Positions 1,743 through 23,720 are shown, numbered from the stretch's first letter. The stretch: DNA of 27,848 nt from a virus (IMGVR_UViG_3300044946_000232:1-27848), one strand, 5' to 3'. A program made the numbers and translations. The notes: generated from the sequence alone by a model not told the origin.

Positions 1743-2122
1743 AGGATCGAGAAGACTTCGTACGGTTCGCGGCGGCGTCGGCGCTGCAGGCATCGTCGAA
1801 TGCCGGCGAGAGGAAGGCGCGGGCAGTCGACGCAAAGGCTACGGCCGAGGAGCTGGCCGATCTCTTCGGGTACGACGGCGACCCCGACGAGGTCGGCCGC
1901 CTTCGCGCGCGGCTGGACCATGAGCAACGGGCGCACCAGATCACCGCGGACGGCCTGAAGCTCAACGTGCAAAGGCTCTCCGATCTGGAGGCGGCCGGCG
2001 TGACCATGGCCCGCGTCGACGAGCTCGAGCAGCTCGGCGCCACGAACGCCAAACGGATCGCCGATCTCGAAGCCCAGCTTCGCGAGGCGCAGACGATCAA
2101 GCCAGAGAGGGGGCGGCGATGA
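1739..2122 (+). CDS. coiled-coil hypothetical protein
   Basis: This 127-residue protein has a globular N-terminal part (about 1-45) with an acidic Asp-Gly-Asp-Pro-Asp segment, then a long charged helix (about 50-120) with heptad-like Leu/Ile/Val spacing, a likely coiled coil. It overlaps both neighbours as ATGA. Its place between the possible small terminase and a methyltransferase gives little clue. A structural or oligomerising role is plausible, but I do not recognise a family. Confidence 0.6.
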   Translation: MKDREDFVRFAAASALQASSNAGERKARAVDAKATAEELADLFGYDGDPDEVGRLRARLDHEQRAHQITADGLKLNVQRLSDLEAAGVTMARVDELEQLGATNAKRIADLEAQLREAQTIKPERGRR

Positions 2123-2730
2123 GCGCGCCGCTCGCGCAGCTACCCGACATCGAGGACGCCCAGTGGCGCCCCCTGATCCCAGGATGGTCGAAGGACATTC
2201 TGCCCTTCTACGCGCGCGTCGCCGGAGAGCTGGTCGACGGGGACATCGTCGTTGAGGTGGGCGTCCACTCGGGCAGGTCGATCTTCTACCTCGCCGAGCA
2301 GCTCCTCGGACTAGGCAAGCGGAACGTCGAGCTCTACGCGATCGACTGGTGGCGGGGCCCCCAGTTCCGCCAGCAGCTCCTGAAGACGATGGCGGAGAAC
2401 CGCTTCAACGGCATCACCGCCCAGGAGATCGACATGGTGAAGGTCGTCAGCTTCGAGGGCGCTCGAGCGGCACGCCTGTTTCGCGACGACGAGCTCGCGG
2501 GCGTCTTCATCGACTCCGACCACGAGGAGAAGGGGATGCTCGAGCACCTGGCCGCGTGGGCGCCGAAGGTGAAGACAGGCGGCTTCATCGCAGGTCACGA
2601 CTACTGCTTCGAGGACTGGCCGGGCGTCGTCCGAGCCGTCGACGAGTTCTTCAACCCGCACGGCGCCGAGGGTGACGACAACCCGATCGGGCGCCCGACG
2701 CGGACCGTGTGGGAAGTGAGGCAGCCATGA
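2119..2730 (+). CDS. class I SAM-dependent methyltransferase
   Basis: A 203-residue protein with the Rossmann-type methyltransferase pattern. The glycine-rich SAM loop is at 44-54 (VVEVGVHSGRS), an acidic strand end follows at about 75-77 (AID), then VFIDSDH at 129-135 and GGFIAGHDY at 154-162. This arrangement matches the Methyltransf_24 type, whose members often methylate sugars or small molecules rather than DNA. No DPPY/NPPY DNA-methylase motif is present. It overlaps the next gene, a glycosyltransferase, by ATGA, so the two probably act on the same product, perhaps a glycan on the virion or on DNA. The substrate cannot be read from sequence. Confidence 0.85.
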   Translation: MSAPLAQLPDIEDAQWRPLIPGWSKDILPFYARVAGELVDGDIVVEVGVHSGRSIFYLAEQLLGLGKRNVELYAIDWWRGPQFRQQLLKTMAENRFNGITAQEIDMVKVVSFEGARAARLFRDDELAGVFIDSDHEEKGMLEHLAAWAPKVKTGGFIAGHDYCFEDWPGVVRAVDEFFNPHGAEGDDNPIGRPTRTVWEVRQP

Positions 2731-4487
2731 CGACCGGACGTAGCTCCGTAGTGACCATCGCCCTGGCCGTGCCCTGGTGCCCCTGGATCCCTGAGCGGGT
2801 CGAGAGCATGAACCGGCTCCGCGCCGCTCTCGGAGTGTCGCAGGACGAGAAGGCAAACCGGCTGCTCATGCCGTACCGCGAGTTCACCGATAGGGCGCCC
2901 AACGATGAGTGGAGCGAGAAGGTGTGGGAGTGGCTCTCAACGACCTCGGCGGAGTGGTGTCTTCAGCTCCAGGAGGACGCGCTCGTCGCTCCGAACTTCT
3001 GGCCGGCCCTCCACGCCATCCTCGAGGCGCTGCCCGAGGACGCCGACGTGGTAGGCCTCCAGGTGCCGCACCGCGCGGCGCCGTCGCTCGCGCGGGAAGG
3101 CGTGCGGCTCTTCACCACGGCCGACGCCCTGATCGGCGTCGGCTACGTCGTCCGTCGCTCGGCGCTCTTCGACTTCCTGATCTGGCGCGGGACGCAGCTG
3201 CGCGCCGGGTGGCGTAAGCCCGTGCCGCCGAAGAACCTCCCGGAGCTGACGGAGGACACGCTTCTCGGCGTGTGGTGCCTCGCGACCGGCCGGCGCATCT
3301 ACCATCCGATCCCGACCATCGTCGACCACGACGTCTCGATGCAAAGCGTGTGGGGTAACGACGACCACCCAAACCGCGTCGCGACGGTGCGATGGGACGG
3401 GGACCTCGGCAATGCCCTGAAGCGCTGGACGCCGGCGGATCTCGAGGTGCCGGCCTGGTGGTGCGGTGACCAGTTCAAGCACCCCGGGGACGTCCTTCGT
3501 CGAGCCGCGATCCCTCACCTCGGCCGGTTCTACGACGCCACGCCGCTTCTCGCGCTGAAGTGGGTCGAGGGTTTCACGACAGCCGACTTCCAGCGAGCGC
3601 GGGTAGACACGGGCGCGAGCGAGCTCCGTCGCCTGGCGCACGCAGAGCGCGGCCGCCACGACTTCAAGGCGCTGGCGACCGCGCTCGTGTGCACACCCAT
3701 CCGCGGCAAGCCTGCGCCCGAGCATCAGCGTTCGATGATTCAGCTGGTGCACGATGAGGCGATCGAGCTGCTCGACCCGACCGATGTCGTCGCCCTGAAG
3801 TCGCTACAGGAGACGCTGGTGCTGACGCGATCGCGTCACGCGCGCGCCGTCGTCGAGTCGGGCTCGGACGTCGGGATCCAGGTCGACGGTGACGTATCCT
3901 GCGAGAGCGGCATGATCCGCCGCATGGTCGCGGCCGTGATGGCCGGAAAGGACATCGTGTGCGCTCCGTACCCGCGGCGGGACGGCGTACACTTCGAGAG
4001 CGTCGCCCAGCACGATCCCCTGGGTCGTCCGCCCGAATCCCGCGCGTACCGCTACGACATGAAGCTCCTGCCCGACGCTCCGAAGTTCAAGGCGATCGAC
4101 GAGCTAGGCGCGTACCTGCTCGAGAAGGGCGAGGCCGATGGGTGTGTCGAAGTCGAGTCGATGCCCATCGGCTGCAGCGTGATCCGGCGCACGGTCTTCG
4201 AGCGGATGATCGAGGCCTACCGCGGCGAGCTCGAGATCGACGACGAGCTCGAGGGCGTCCGAGCACCCCTGGTCCTGCTCTTCATGGTGAAGCTCCGCGA
4301 TCGCAAGCTGGTGCACGACGACGTCGCCTTCCTCGAAAGGGCGCGCGCCATCGGGATCAAGGTGCACGCGTACTTCGGACCGGGGTCGCCCGCGACCCAC
4401 CATGGCACGCACGCCTTCGCCGGCAACGTAGCGAGCTTCGGCCTGTACCGCGTTGAGGGGGACAGGGCAGCGCCGCCGGCGACGTGA
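2727..4487 (+). CDS. two-domain glycosyltransferase
   Basis: A 586-residue protein; I chose the ATG at 2727 because it overlaps the methyltransferase stop as ATGA, although a start 18 bases upstream is open. Residues 1-225 resemble a GT-A fold, with a QEDA acidic motif at 82-85 where GT25-like enzymes have Glu-Asp-Asp, and a His-Asp-Val-Ser segment near 201-204. Residues 316-570 form a second GT-A-like domain: strand ALVCTPIRGK at 319-328, the DxD-type metal motif DGD at 387-389, DDVAF at 531-535 and a His-rich end near 558-562. It probably transfers sugars to a virion protein, DNA or a host glycan. Two catalytic-looking centres in one chain suggest successive transfers, but one may be inactive. 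Donor and acceptor are unknown. Confidence 0.78.
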   Translation: MTTGRSSVVTIALAVPWCPWIPERVESMNRLRAALGVSQDEKANRLLMPYREFTDRAPNDEWSEKVWEWLSTTSAEWCLQLQEDALVAPNFWPALHAILEALPEDADVVGLQVPHRAAPSLAREGVRLFTTADALIGVGYVVRRSALFDFLIWRGTQLRAGWRKPVPPKNLPELTEDTLLGVWCLATGRRIYHPIPTIVDHDVSMQSVWGNDDHPNRVATVRWDGDLGNALKRWTPADLEVPAWWCGDQFKHPGDVLRRAAIPHLGRFYDATPLLALKWVEGFTTADFQRARVDTGASELRRLAHAERGRHDFKALATALVCTPIRGKPAPEHQRSMIQLVHDEAIELLDPTDVVALKSLQETLVLTRSRHARAVVESGSDVGIQVDGDVSCESGMIRRMVAAVMAGKDIVCAPYPRRDGVHFESVAQHDPLGRPPESRAYRYDMKLLPDAPKFKAIDELGAYLLEKGEADGCVEVESMPIGCSVIRRTVFERMIEAYRGELEIDDELEGVRAPLVLLFMVKLRDRKLVHDDVAFLERARAIGIKVHAYFGPGSPATHHGTHAFAGNVASFGLYRVEGDRAAPPAT

Positions 4488-10808: not shown

Positions 10809-12113
10809 GTGTTCCCGTACCTCGACCTCGCGGGCTTCACGTCCCGCACGGTGATGCCGGATACGGACGTCGCGCTCGTCGAGGCGTCGTTCCCCGGCTT
10901 CACCGCACAACGGATCTCCGTGAGGTCGAGTTACGTCAATGCTCGCCTCCGGAAGAGGTACGGGAACGCCCCCAACGTCGGTAACTCGCTTCCTCTTGGC
11001 CAGAGGGCGCCCGTCCTCGAGGCCGCGGGGACCATCCCCCCGCCGGTCGGCCTGCAGGGTCGGCCGGTACTCGGTTGCCTCGAGATGGCGCTGGCGATTG
11101 TCGCCGCCGGCGCCGTGGGCGCGGCGACCTTCCAGTGGAGCTCGGACGGCGGCAAGACGTGGACGACCGGCGCGATACCCCTCGCCGCGGGAACCGCGCC
11201 GCCACCCGTCACCCTGTCCGGAGCCTCGGCGCTCGCGCTTCCCGATGACCTGATCGTCCAGGTCGTCACTCCCGGCGCCCTCGGGACCGCGAAGATCCAG
11301 TACTCATCCAACGCGGGCGAGAGCTGGGCCATCGCCCCGGCGCTGGCGAGCTCCGGGACGAGCCCCCCGCCGGTGACGGTTTCGGGCCTCTCTTCCCTCG
11401 CAGTCCCCGCCGACCTGGTCGTCGAGGTGACGACCGCGGGAGGCCTCGGCGTGGCCCTGGTGAAGTACTCCCTCGACGGCGGCGCCACGTTCGTCACGGG
11501 TGTCCCCACCGCCGCCGCGGTCCCCCTGGGCGCGAGCGGGCTGACGGCGGCCTTCCCCGCCGCTCTCTACGCGACGGACAACGTATATACAGGCCAGGGT
11601 CTCTCGACGGCGGCTAGCGTCCCCCTGGGCGCCACCGGGCTCGTGGCGGCATTCCCAGCCGGCACCTACAGCGCCGACAACGTCTACACCGGCCAGGGCA
11701 TCCCGACGGCGCTCATGGTGACGCTCGGCGCGACGGGAATGCAGGCGGCGTTCCCCGTCGGCGAGTACTCGGCCGACAACGTCTACCTGGCGTCGACTCC
11801 GGTCCCGGAGACCGTCCTCGGGTGGATCGTCGCGATGGTCACGGTCGACGACTACCAGAAGCGCGGGGTGAACCCACAGGACCCGATGATCGCGCTTTGC
11901 GTCGAGGCGCTCACCACGGCGATGGCGGAGCTCAAGGAGGCGGCGGATTCGAAAGAGGGGCTCTTCGATCTTCCTGCCTGCGAGGACGCCGACTCCGCCG
12001 TCACCACCGGCGGCCCTCTCGGGTACTCCGAGACGTCGCCTTACGCGTGGACGGACATCGAGGCCAATACGGGTCGCGCGGAAGACGCGCGCGGCCGGGG
12101 GACCGGCCCATGA
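10809..12113 (+). CDS. neck/head-tail adaptor with tandem beta repeats
   Basis: A 434-residue protein in the Mu gp36 position. Residues 1-60 (helical, SSYVNARLRKRYG at 40-52) and 330-420 (helices with DDYQKRGVNPQDPM at 347-360) together look like a gp36/DUF1320-type adaptor that links portal and neck. Between them are two repeat sets: three of about 48-55 residues (75-128, 129-183, 184-231), each with a PPPV start and most with a W- or F-bearing DGG turn, then three of 33 residues (232-264, 265-297, 298-330) each with LGA, AAFP and DNVY. The usual adaptor is less than half this length. GTG 10809 has only a weak ribosome site. The repeats probably form surface beta domains on the neck. The stop overlaps the next gene (ATGA). 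Confidence 0.72.
   Translation: MFPYLDLAGFTSRTVMPDTDVALVEASFPGFTAQRISVRSSYVNARLRKRYGNAPNVGNSLPLGQRAPVLEAAGTIPPPVGLQGRPVLGCLEMALAIVAAGAVGAATFQWSSDGGKTWTTGAIPLAAGTAPPPVTLSGASALALPDDLIVQVVTPGALGTAKIQYSSNAGESWAIAPALASSGTSPPPVTVSGLSSLAVPADLVVEVTTAGGLGVALVKYSLDGGATFVTGVPTAAAVPLGASGLTAAFPAALYATDNVYTGQGLSTAASVPLGATGLVAAFPAGTYSADNVYTGQGIPTALMVTLGATGMQAAFPVGEYSADNVYLASTPVPETVLGWIVAMVTVDDYQKRGVNPQDPMIALCVEALTTAMAELKEAADSKEGLFDLPACEDADSAVTTGGPLGYSETSPYAWTDIEANTGRAEDARGRGTGP
11031..11501 (+). repeat. three tandem 48-55-residue coding repeats
   Basis: Units start at 11031, 11193 and 11358 within the adaptor gene. Each starts with a PPPV segment, continues through LP..L.V.V..GG or a near match, and holds a short DGG or NAG turn followed by W or F. 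The third unit runs directly into the shorter repeat set. Protein similarity is clear while the DNA has diverged, so the duplication is not recent. Confidence 0.75.
11502..11798 (+). repeat. three tandem 99-base coding repeats
   Basis: Units at 11502-11600, 11601-11699 and 11700-11798 encode 33 residues each. All share LGA.G(L/M), AAFP, (A/S)(T/A)DNVY, and the first two end in TGQG. Similarity is visible at DNA level (for example GACAACGT.TA.AC and CCCTGGGCGC), so these copies look younger than the preceding longer repeats. Confidence 0.8.
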
Positions 12114-12502
12114 GCGGCCTCGACGAGATGATCGACGCGTTCCACTCGCTCGGCACCATCGACGAGCGCACGGCGAAGATCGCCGCGCCGCTGCTCGACC
12201 AGGCCGTGAAGCAGACCGCTGGCGCCGGCCAGTCGCCCGAAGGCAAACCGTGGGCACCGACGAAGACCGGCCGACGCGCCATGGCCAACGCAGCCAGCCA
12301 TATCCAGACGCGCGCGTTTGGCCCGGTCGTGAAGCAGACGCTGACGGGACCGGACGTCTTTCACCACTACGGGACGCGCGGCGAGCCACGTCGCGCCGTT
12401 ATCCCCGACGCCGGCGGCATGCTCCCGACCGTGGTCGGCAATGCCCTCGACAAAGCCAGCGCGCAGGCCTTCGACGAGCTCACCTCGGGGGCGAAGTCGT
12501 GA
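12110..12502 (+). CDS. virion morphogenesis protein (Mu gpG-like)
   Basis: A 130-residue protein whose start overlaps the adaptor stop as ATGA; the longer open frame upstream is a shadow of the adaptor. The segment SPEGKPWAPTKTGRR at 42-56 is the hallmark of the phage virion morphogenesis/tail completion family (Mu gpG, P2 gpS-like), and the end has a HHYGTRGEPRRAVIP stretch at 84-98. These proteins act at the head-tail junction or tail terminus. In Mu the equivalent lies further upstream, near the F-like head gene; here it sits among the neck genes. It overlaps the next gene by GTGA. Confidence 0.78.
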   Translation: MSGLDEMIDAFHSLGTIDERTAKIAAPLLDQAVKQTAGAGQSPEGKPWAPTKTGRRAMANAASHIQTRAFGPVVKQTLTGPDVFHHYGTRGEPRRAVIPDAGGMLPTVVGNALDKASAQAFDELTSGAKS

Positions 12503-13098
12503 ACCGGTCCGGGCTCATTGCGCTCTCGGACGCGGTGCGCGCGTACCTGCCGACGATTGGAGTCACGACGACCGTGACGCCGGTCGGGTGGCGCTACCGG
12601 ACCTTCAACGTCAATCAGGGCCCGGGTGGGGCCAACCGCGTCTCGTTCATCCCCGGCAAGATCGATCCGACGTCGCCGGCGCCGCCGAAAGTCGTCGACG
12701 GCGGGACCTTCTACCAGCCGAAGTTCGGCAACGCGGGAAAGCCGCTTGGTGCGAATGCCAACCCACGCCGCCTGCTCTCGTGGGAGCGCATCGTCTCCCT
12801 CTCCGTGTGGGCCGTGGACACTACCGACACTTCGAACGACGAGCTGCAGCTGGCCGCGCTCGAGAACCTGGTCGAGGCCACGTTCCAGGCCATGCATAAC
12901 GGGATCGACCCGGTGTCGGGCCTCAACGTGGGACTCGCCGATATCGAGATGCAGGACAGTCTCATCGTGGCGCCGCCCGTCGAGCAGTCGTTCGGACGCG
13001 AGTTCATCCTCTACTTCCTCCACAAGGGGCCCATGTACGACGCCCCGATCCCGACTGTGGTCGTCACCCCGACCATCGAACGCAATCCCGCCAGCTGA
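12499..13098 (+). CDS. probable tail terminator/neck protein
   Basis: A 199-residue protein starting at GTG 12499 overlapping the previous stop (GTGA); the longer upstream frame was rejected. It follows the virion morphogenesis gene and precedes the sheath, the normal place for a tail terminator (Mu gp37 or equivalent) that caps the tail tube. The sequence has the alpha-beta pattern expected: an N-terminal helix with ALSDAVRAYL, a long loop, a central strand LLSWERIVSLSVWAV, a helix with ENLVEATFQAMHNG, and a final strand FGREFILYFLHKGP. The family is assigned by context and fold pattern, not by a diagnostic motif. Confidence 0.65.
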   Translation: MNRSGLIALSDAVRAYLPTIGVTTTVTPVGWRYRTFNVNQGPGGANRVSFIPGKIDPTSPAPPKVVDGGTFYQPKFGNAGKPLGANANPRRLLSWERIVSLSVWAVDTTDTSNDELQLAALENLVEATFQAMHNGIDPVSGLNVGLADIEMQDSLIVAPPVEQSFGREFILYFLHKGPMYDAPIPTVVVTPTIERNPAS

Positions 13099-13110
13099 CG
13101 AGGTCTCTCG

Positions 13111-14586
13111 ATGCTCCCTTCAGTCCAGATCAAGAAGGCCGATTTCCAGACTGGCGTCGTCAAGCCGTCGAGCGTCGGCATCATGGCGATCATCGCGGCC
13201 AGCGCCGCCGGGAATGCCAATGTCGCGGGGAGCTACCTGCGCGACGATCTCCTCTTCGACGACGTCGGCGAGGGGCCGCTGGTCCAGTACGGCTCGTACT
13301 GCCTTCAGGCCGGAGAGAATCCCGTTGTCGCGGTGAAGGGTGCGGCCTCGACCGCGGGCACCATCGTCGGCCCATTGACCAAGAGCGTCGCGGGCTCGGC
13401 CTCACCAACGTTCACGGGCACGCCGGTGGACGAGTACGCGCCGGGCTTCGTCATCGTCGCCGGCGGGGCGCTTGGGACCGCCGGGATCACGTTCCAATAC
13501 ACATTGGACGGCCAGACGTTATCAGGAGTGACCGCGCTGGGGACGGCGACCACCTTCGCGATCCCGGCCGGACCGAACTCCGCCTCCGGCGTGACCATCA
13601 ACTTCGGGTCGAGCAGCGCCACCTATCTGCCCGGCGACAACGCGCAGACCTTCACGACGCGGCCGCTCAACACCGACGTCGACCTGGCGAGCGCCCTCGA
13701 GGGGCTCCGCATCACGCGCCTGCCCTGGGAGGGCGTGCTCATCGACTGCACGCTCGGAACGTCGACCGTAGGACTCGTCGACACGTGGCTTCAGGGCCTC
13801 GAGGCCGTTGGCCAGTTTCACTTCGCGCTGCTGAACTACCGCCACAAGATCCAGCCGGCGCCGACCGGGGAGACCGAGGCGGCGTACGCCACGGCCATCA
13901 TCGCGGCGACTCAGGCACTGGCCTCGATTCGGGTCTGCGTCGGGGCCGACGCGGCGGCGCTCACCTCCACCATGACCGGCTGGAGTCAGCCGCGGCCGAC
14001 GGCGCTCTTCCTGGCCGCGCGGGCCATGCTCATCCCGATCGGCGAGGACCCCGCATACGTCGGTCGCGGGCCGCTCACCGGCGCCAGCATTGCTGACGGC
14101 AACGGCAACCCGCTCTGGCACGACGAGGATCTCTACCCCAACCTTGATTCGCAGCGCCTCGTGACGCTCCGGAGCTTCGCCCCCGGCGGCCCGCAAGGCG
14201 TCTACATCACCGACGCGAACGTCCTGTCGCCCAATGGCAGCGACTACGTGTGGCTGCAGCACGTCCGCACGATGAACGTCGCGTGCGGCATTGCCTACCA
14301 GGTGCTCACGACTCTCCTCTCGATCGGGGTCGGGAAGAAGCCGGCCGACCCCATCACGGGCCAGGTCTACATCCAGGAGAAGGACGCGCAGCGCATCGAG
14401 GGCCTCGTCAACGCGGCGCTCGCCCAGCCGATGAAGGGCCAGGTCAATCAGGTCCTCTTCACGCTCTCGAGAACCGACAACCTCTCGAGCAACTCCGACT
14501 CCACGGTCACCGGCCAGGTCCAGATCGTGGGCCTCGAGTACATCAAGAAATTCGTCGTCACCACGTCCTTCGCGACGTCGGTCTGA
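13111..14586 (+). CDS. tail sheath protein
   Basis: A 491-residue contractile sheath subunit with ribosome site GAGG 8 bases before ATG 13111. Residues 1-90 begin the core (VQIKKADFQTGVV) and residues 190-491 complete it, including WLQGLEAVGQFHFALLNY at about 228-245 and a C-terminal domain with TADPITGQVYIQEKDAQRIEG-like sequence ending VGLEYIKKFVVTT. Residues 97-184 are an inserted beta-module (GGALGTAGITFQYTLDG at 118-134). That module resembles the repeats in the adaptor gene upstream. Sheath subunits stack around the tube and contract to drive it through the cell envelope. The next gene is the tube. Confidence 0.88.
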   Translation: MLPSVQIKKADFQTGVVKPSSVGIMAIIAASAAGNANVAGSYLRDDLLFDDVGEGPLVQYGSYCLQAGENPVVAVKGAASTAGTIVGPLTKSVAGSASPTFTGTPVDEYAPGFVIVAGGALGTAGITFQYTLDGQTLSGVTALGTATTFAIPAGPNSASGVTINFGSSSATYLPGDNAQTFTTRPLNTDVDLASALEGLRITRLPWEGVLIDCTLGTSTVGLVDTWLQGLEAVGQFHFALLNYRHKIQPAPTGETEAAYATAIIAATQALASIRVCVGADAAALTSTMTGWSQPRPTALFLAARAMLIPIGEDPAYVGRGPLTGASIADGNGNPLWHDEDLYPNLDSQRLVTLRSFAPGGPQGVYITDANVLSPNGSDYVWLQHVRTMNVACGIAYQVLTTLLSIGVGKKPADPITGQVYIQEKDAQRIEGLVNAALAQPMKGQVNQVLFTLSRTDNLSSNSDSTVTGQVQIVGLEYIKKFVVTTSFATSV

Positions 14587-22445: not shown

Positions 22446-23720
22446 ATGCACGGCTACGCAGGAGACCCTACCAACTACCCGGCCGAGGTCGAGCTCATCG
22501 ACGACTCGGACGCGCCCAACGCCACGAACTTCGGCACGACCAGCGAGGGCACGCTGGACCGGACGGCGTGGCTTCGGGTGCGCATCGCCGCCGGGCCGGC
22601 GGTGGACTGGAAGCCGAGCTTCGTGGCCACGGCTGGCCCCGGCGGAGCCGACTTCGGAGCGGCTTGCTACGACTACGACAACAACTGGATCCTCGTCACG
22701 TTCCACCAAGGCTCGATGCAGTGGGACGCATTCCAGGGCCAGGGCCTCGACGCAGGCGCCGCGGCCGCGTGGAGGCAGCTGGGGGCCACTCAGACAATGA
22801 CGTACGCAGCCGTTTCGGACGCGGCCGTCTCGCCCGATCCATCGTCGACGGGGCAGTACTGGGTCTTCACTCACGAGCACAATCCCTCCGGAAATCCGTA
22901 CAACTTCACGGCGTATCAGTTCGCCAGCGGATCGTGGACGGTCAAACGAACGTTTCAGTGCAACCCCGGAACGATCGGCAAGCTGTCCTGCGTCGCGTTC
23001 AACGGCTCGATCATCTACGCGCTCGCCGCCCAAAACGTCGCCGGCGCCGGCTTCTCGAGCTCGAGCGATAGCGGATCCACATGGCACGACTTCAGCGCCG
23101 GATTGCCGAATATGCCAAACGGTTCCGAGTGGCTGCTCAAAACGACGGTCGACCCGCTGGGCGTGCCTGCCTCCGGGGACCACGTGCTCGCGGTGCCGGC
23201 GTTCGCGGCGCTGGGAGCGGCGACGCCGGTGTGGAAAAGCACCAACGGCGCCGCGTGGACGCAATCAGCCACCCTATCGGGGCTCCCCTCGGGAGCGAGC
23301 ATCGTCGGTCTGTCGTGGTGCAACGACGGTCTGGGGCCCTGCTGGATTCTCATGGTGCAGACGGGTGTCTTCGCAACGACGATCCTTCGTAGTCCCGACG
23401 GCGTCACGTGGACGACGCAGCTCGGTTCGGCGCCGACAGCGGACATTGCGGATATGGGAAGCCTAGCGCCCGTCAGTCCGGGCACTGTAGGCCCCACCCT
23501 CGTATGCACGCTCGCGGACGAGTCGACGCCCGGCGGCTCGGGGCAGATCCTCAGCATCGACGGCGGGCAAAACTGGTATCCCAGCGAGGCTCGTCTCTTC
23601 GGCAACGACACCGGGTCGACTGGCTACACGCGTTCGCGCGTCGTGGCGTCGGGAAACGGCTTTTTCACCTACAACAGCCTGTGGGCGCGCTTCTCCGCGC
23701 TCTTCGGGCTGCCCTTCTGA
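22446..23720 (+). CDS. Asp-box beta-propeller tail protein
   Basis: A 424-residue protein three bases after the wedge gene, and before the tailspike. Four Asp-box-like turns recur: SSDSGSTW (about 206-213), STNGAAW (about 265), SPDGVTW (about 316) and SIDGGQNW (about 370). These turns mark sialidase/BNR-type beta-propellers. The first 60 residues seem to be an anchor to the baseplate. The protein could be a receptor-binding tip or glycan hydrolase, but catalytic arginines and the Tyr/Glu pair of true sialidases are not identifiable, so binding is more likely than cleavage. The ribosome site is weak. Confidence 0.68.
   Translation: MHGYAGDPTNYPAEVELIDDSDAPNATNFGTTSEGTLDRTAWLRVRIAAGPAVDWKPSFVATAGPGGADFGAACYDYDNNWILVTFHQGSMQWDAFQGQGLDAGAAAAWRQLGATQTMTYAAVSDAAVSPDPSSTGQYWVFTHEHNPSGNPYNFTAYQFASGSWTVKRTFQCNPGTIGKLSCVAFNGSIIYALAAQNVAGAGFSSSSDSGSTWHDFSAGLPNMPNGSEWLLKTTVDPLGVPASGDHVLAVPAFAALGAATPVWKSTNGAAWTQSATLSGLPSGASIVGLSWCNDGLGPCWILMVQTGVFATTILRSPDGVTWTTQLGSAPTADIADMGSLAPVSPGTVGPTLVCTLADESTPGGSGQILSIDGGQNWYPSEARLFGNDTGSTGYTRSRVVASGNGFFTYNSLWARFSALFGLPF

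Follow-up and report, generated by a model that had tools for sequence, protein, structure and literature searches.

An uncatalogued β-module shared by tail sheath, neck adaptor and further virion proteins may nest within itself in a phage neck

Introduction

The Ig-like domains of phages (Fraser et al. 2006, as described in PMC9230969 and PMC8718954) have been proposed to touch cell-surface carbohydrate. Additional domains of phage structural proteins were also described by Evseev et al. 2022 (PMC9230969), in this case in tail sheaths only. In the neck, gp36 of phage Mu assembles as a 12-mer that is located between portal and terminator (PMC11915804). Here, we analysed 27,848 nucleotides of viral DNA (IMGVR_UViG_3300044946_000232:1-27848; hereafter the window), for which a first-pass annotation had suggested that one surface module is built into both the neck adaptor and the tail sheath.

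This module shares with phage Ig-like domains that it is a small β-domain, occurs in several unrelated virion proteins, is lacking in close relatives and is exchanged between phages; by this analogy, it behaves like these promiscuous domains. However, it matches neither the I-set, Big_1/Big_2 nor FN3 families and has no convincing Ig-fold match in the PDB. Moreover, Ig-like domains are located C-terminally and often attached by frameshift, whereas the module sits in loops, in frame, and appears to nest within itself in the adaptor. Since it has neither an Ig-type family match nor the position of a C-terminal addition, we do not class it as phage Ig-like. The sheath copy, located between the N- and C-terminal core of the DUF2586 sheath, is an additional sheath domain in the sense of Evseev et al., but the family studied here is also present in capsid, decoration, adaptor, completion and baseplate proteins. 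The likeness to BNR/Asp-box repeats (PF02012) is limited to one hairpin, S-x-D-G-G-x-T-W; unlike in a sialidase-type β-propeller, there is a single motif of ~12 residues per 85-residue module, and the predicted fold is one small β-domain. Finally, the window adaptor contains a 260-residue insert of three modules, whereas no insert is present in Mu gp36 or in 54 of the 65 distinct sister adaptors.

Results

Both reading frames, encoding an adaptor of 434 aa and a sheath of 491 aa, are open over the coordinates given in Table 1. The sheath scores 67.8 bits with PF10758 (cut-off 26.4 bits) and its phrog_907 match spans residues 1–489; a viral scan with the single window sheath sequence as query found no relatives. 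A Pfam search with the window adaptor itself returned no match, PF07030 included. When the repeat block is set aside, both ends of the protein can be aligned with the gp36 adaptors from phages of Thermus, Meiothermus and Myxococcus. In addition, the adaptor HMM matches on both flanks of the insert, and sister proteins match PF07030 (Phage_Mu_Gp36; module-less L143, 1.4e-7; L085, 4e-11). From its two core parts and these module-less sisters, we assign the window protein, on sequence grounds, to the gp36-type adaptors, and the gene order of the window fits an adaptor between portal and terminator.

Table 1. Adaptor and sheath genes of the window and the module parts within them
Feature	Coordinates	Strand	Evidence
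gp36-type head-tail adaptor with three-module insert, 434 aa	10809..12113	+	ends align with gp36 adaptors; adaptor HMM E 8.8e-18
A1, N-half, outermost module, residues 72-124	11022..11180	+	31-39 bits, module HMMs
A2, N-half, middle module, residues 126-180	11184..11348	+	31-37 bits
A3, N-half, innermost module, residues 181-232, runs on into B1	11349..11504	+	A3-B1 61-65 bits
B1, C-half, innermost module, residues 233-264	11505..11600	+	continuous with A3
B2, C-half, residues 265-297, putative partner of A2	11601..11699	+	18-20 bits
B3, C-half, residues 298-331, putative partner of A1	11700..11801	+	13-14 bits
DUF2586 tail sheath, 491 aa	13111..14586	+	PF10758 E 1.2e-18; phrog_907 E 3.6e-16
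Single module in sheath, residues ~91-184	13381..13662	+	45-51 bits, HMMs built without window sequences

The adaptor had been read as containing three repeats of about 50 residues followed by three of 33, and this order is present in residues 72–331, as three copies of ~53 aa (37–48% pairwise identity) and three of 33 aa (52–73%; B1 versus B2, 73%). The 50-aa repeats correspond to positions 3 to ~52 of the module HMM and the 33-aa repeats to positions ~53–83, all being split at one and the same point of the module. Judged by these alignments, they are the N-half (A) and C-half (B) of one module and not two kinds of repeat. The three copies sit in the loop after the second helix of the adaptor. 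A3-B1 is the only continuous A/B pair in the window adaptor, and B3 adjoins the adaptor core in the same place as the B-half in single-module adaptors. In all six halves, third codon positions are saturated while the amino acids are kept, which indicates that none of them is debris and that all are old and maintained; the saturation also spoils dating of the A versus B duplications by third codon positions.

An HMM built from the sheath inserts of other phages only, containing no window sequence, assigns 107 bits (E 1.9e-31) to the adaptor block, and the HMM of the whole family, likewise devoid of window sequences, finds five domains in the block with 142 bits in total. As a null control, 2000 shuffles of the block reached at best 10.5–11 bits. 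Direct BLASTP of adaptor versus sheath within the window gives E-values of 0.009–0.015, too weak alone, but the sheath module of L002 bridges the two, with a match to the former at 4e-15 and to the insert in the latter at 7e-9. The profile comparison thus bears out the suggestion that the same module occupies both proteins: sheath insert and adaptor repeats represent, by sequence, one homologous module of ~85 residues.

The module was present in 63 of the 65 sheaths from loci picked by the adaptor and not by the module; it is hence near-constant in the sheath of those loci, and the window sheath would hold a long-resident copy. Several sheaths carry two modules in tandem. In the L068 sheath, a module of the first branch (see below) precedes the resident module, and the match of the latter misses the first strand, which suggests that a module was inserted into the resident copy. 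The sheaths of L045 (7035-9155, + strand) and L060 (7230-9119, + strand) have an extra, different insert before the module ('...VKYWDGTDWTEVAGLSDASTGLTAGTSTYAITFTMPTDW...'), so that the same loop region of the sheath seems to take unrelated domains as well. The only adaptor-locus sheath without a match to the module HMM, L148:15582-17162 (+ strand; duplicate L161), has ~100 residues at the module site, which may represent a diverged domain or a replacement.

Carriers were counted from viral scans and HMM searches after masking the module and clustering the carrier proteins; loci were preselected, so the numbers are not frequencies. The module was found in seven kinds of virion proteins, which provides the occurrence beyond sheath and adaptor that the first-pass annotation had proposed to look for: sheath (85 ORFs), major capsid protein (15), baseplate J (12), LamG-type appendage (2), decoration-like protein (2) and, in the same census, completion-type proteins and the window adaptor. 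A single genome may contain several carriers: L085 has four copies in four virion proteins, modules are present in three proteins of L095, and two modules each occur in the baseplate J proteins from L072 and L078. Homologues with and without the module number 15 and 17 for the capsid protein, 12 and 37 for baseplate J, 2 and 9 for the decoration-like protein and 11 and 54 for the distinct adaptors. Module-less homologues are thus common outside the sheath, which marks the module as an insertion there, and the copies in capsid, decoration, adaptor, sheath and baseplate J proteins are all internal and in frame. In the window's own lineage, two completion-type genes that directly precede the sheath, L186:6292-7572 and L201:6074-7564 (+ strand), contain the module; their window counterpart (12523-13098) is without it. 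A scan of genome contigs yielded five loci, four from Meiothermus and one weak match from Alteromonadales, and several carriers stem from thermophile phages.

Searches with 92 members of the family gave no match in PHROGs (0/92) and only scattered weak matches in Pfam and NCBIfam, mainly to the Asp-box hairpin; the ~85-residue module is uncatalogued in these three databases. The Pfam models I-set, Big_1, Big_2 and FN3 matched none of the 92 members, nor was any of these found in PHROGs. The hairpin of the A-half is Asp-box-like and reaches 22.6 bits with PF02012 (cut-off 27); it explains the weak matches to sialidases and sulfite oxidases, which we did not interpret as a sign of relatedness. 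A literature search retrieved no description of the module and no DUF2586 paper mentioning phage, which is not proof of novelty.

AlphaFold2, run with 92 sequences, predicts the sheath-type module as an all-β domain of seven strands (pLDDT 91.6, pTM 0.82). In the prediction of the adaptor block, A3-B1 has the same strand order (pLDDT 92–98), while A1, A2, B2 and B3 remain at low confidence (35–70) owing to too few aligned sequences. Foldseek with the module model found nothing in the PDB at E < 0.5 (best E 0.57, TM ~0.3). Among predicted viral proteins, the best match is A0A411CVZ4 (E 9e-6, TM 0.79); this protein and the MMP7 sheath are both 472 aa long. Further matches with TM ~0.6 are mostly uncharacterised phage proteins, and one protein named 'SbsA Ig-like' reaches TM 0.58 (E 0.035). 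The model of the adaptor block gave weak matches only (FlgL, Wzc), which were set aside.

A tree of 116 modules separates two branches by a 99/97 split. In the first, the window adaptor is grouped with seven sheath modules and with those from capsid, decoration and LamG proteins, and many members of this branch start with GT(S/T)PP; the second comprises sheath and baseplate modules including the window sheath copy. A3-B1 is 54% identical to the capsid-protein module of L089, and the normalised similarity of the adaptor copy is 0.43 to a capsid-protein module versus 0.14 to the sheath copy of the window. Forcing both window copies together makes the tree 41 log units worse (AU test p = 0.087).

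From scans with the window capsid protein, the portal and the adaptor C-terminus, we obtained 84 ORFs for adaptors of this lineage, of which 65 are distinct. Among the latter, 54 have no module, nine have the arrangement AB, one has AABB (L141) and one, the window adaptor, AAABBB; unbalanced arrangements such as AAB or ABB were absent from all 65, the A:B ratio always being 0:0, 1:1, 2:2 or 3:3. This ladder of sister adaptors, along with the three A and three B halves of the window, sustains the earlier proposal that the module was expanded in the neck. In a tree of the adaptor core without the insert, module carriers cluster, requiring 3 changes as compared to a mean of 10.4 with shuffled labels. 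The frame of the L141 adaptor, immediately upstream of 7306, contains one in-frame TAG in A1 ('QWS*DGGKTW') and is otherwise open; sequencing error, nonsense mutation and recoding are candidates.

A profile of the A-halves of single-module adaptors scores 71 bits with A1 of the window as compared to 36 and 41 bits with A2 and A3, and 41 versus 32 bits with A1 and A2 of L141. In a tree of the A-halves, A1 of both adaptors joins the single-module adaptors (93/94) and A2 and A3 are sisters (98/81). The inner copies are placed outside the single-module adaptors, close to capsid-protein modules (L089, L091, L092 and L098), at a weak fork (63/30). B1, B2 and B3 score alike (45–48 bits), as do half-swapped concatenations, so that the sequence leaves the choice of A/B partners unfixed. 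The B copies are closer to each other than the A copies, above the family norm at such A identity.

Discussion

Our data are best accommodated by a mobile module of ~85 residues that spread by insertion into loops, that forms a nested arrangement A1[A2[A3-B1]B2]B3 in the window adaptor and whose likeliest role is surface contact, a reading to which we assign a probability of about 0.6. The insertions would have targeted outer virion proteins across a wide group of contractile, Mu-like phages. In the adaptor, one module (A1-B3) would have been gained at first; a second module, of a type nearer to the capsid-protein modules, may then have entered the A/B loop of the first, and a duplicate of this inner module may finally have inserted into its own A/B loop. 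A1 would accordingly fold with B3, and A2 with B2.

A chance likeness of glycine/threonine-rich β sequences, or misassembly of repeats, might be suspected in a metagenomic virus contig whose block has a high content of A, G, T, V and P. Yet shuffled blocks do not exceed 11 bits as compared to 142, the repeats are only 51–71% identical in DNA and hence too unlike for an assembly repeat, and intermediate states occur on independent contigs; both explanations are of negligible probability and were rejected. It is also highly improbable that the sheath insert of this phage was recently copied into its own adaptor and then expanded in tandem. Both copies belong to one module family and the AU test does not formally reject a common clade, but they lie on opposite sides of the 99/97 split, the adaptor module is more similar to a capsid-protein module than to the sheath copy, and the first adaptor module is common to nine other adaptors. 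Thus, the proposal that one module was copied among virion proteins holds in so far as several proteins carry it, whereas direct copying between sheath and adaptor of this phage is not supported by the sequence comparisons.

A more serious competitor, albeit an unlikely one, is that A-half and B-half were expanded in tandem independently of each other, each to three copies, with the spare halves folding on themselves or swapping between neighbouring subunits of the 12-mer to yield an interlocking ring. This would account for the tandem order of A copies and of B copies as well as for the greater similarity among the latter, which separate events permit, and the nested pairing appears in none of the models. 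However, this route demands matched pairs of events at each step, with units meeting at exactly one module position; AABB exists, but AAB and ABB occur in 0/65 distinct adaptors. Furthermore, A1 is of another lineage than A2 and A3 and hence not their tandem copy, and synonymous sites give no sign of younger B copies. Self-nesting therefore remains our preferred reading of the adaptor. As to function, the module might act as a structural clamp, using contacts between neighbouring subunits to stiffen head, neck and tail, which we regard as possible, with odds of roughly one in three. Such a role would suit its near-constancy in the sheath (63/65), the stabilisation proposed for extra sheath domains (PMC9230969) and the carriers from thermophile phages; conversely, the interfaces of the carriers are unlike, and within the same group the module is missing from the majority of capsid proteins, adaptors and baseplate J proteins.

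Judged from the protein types, the carriers would have in common a position at the outer surface and not one interface. This speaks for weak, multivalent contacts of the kind suggested for phage Ig-like domains (PMC8718954, PMC9230969). By analogy, contact with the host surface or a polysaccharide is the most likely role, with reinforcement of the particle second. If the adaptor is a 12-mer as in Mu, 36 modules may ring the neck of this phage, possibly as 12 outward spikes of three modules each. The full picture, in which an uncatalogued β-fold acts as mobile insertion module and self-nests in the neck to place a three-module rod on each of 12 subunits, is more tentative, and we consider it slightly less probable than its opposite.

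In one phage group, a single surface module recurs in proteins of head, neck, sheath and baseplate, and a genome can hold up to four carriers; in addition, the stepwise self-nesting of a domain would be caught with natural intermediates having none, one, two and three copies. This makes testable what promiscuous virion-surface domains do, and how proteins grow when a domain inserts into itself instead of being repeated in tandem. If true, self-nesting would be a way to grow appendages that leaves the carrier protein undisturbed. With a profile of the module, many extensions of structural proteins in phages that are so far unexplained would be annotated.

Two further regions of the window deserve mention. 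Upstream of the terminase, positions 2119-4487 (+ strand) encode two proteins that look by eye methyltransferase- and glycosyltransferase-like, which is unusual beside packaging genes. Following the baseplate genes, positions 22446-23720 (+ strand) encode a 424-aa protein with the Asp-box-like motifs SSDSGSTW, SPDGVTW and SIDGGQNW, by eye perhaps a β-propeller tail protein.
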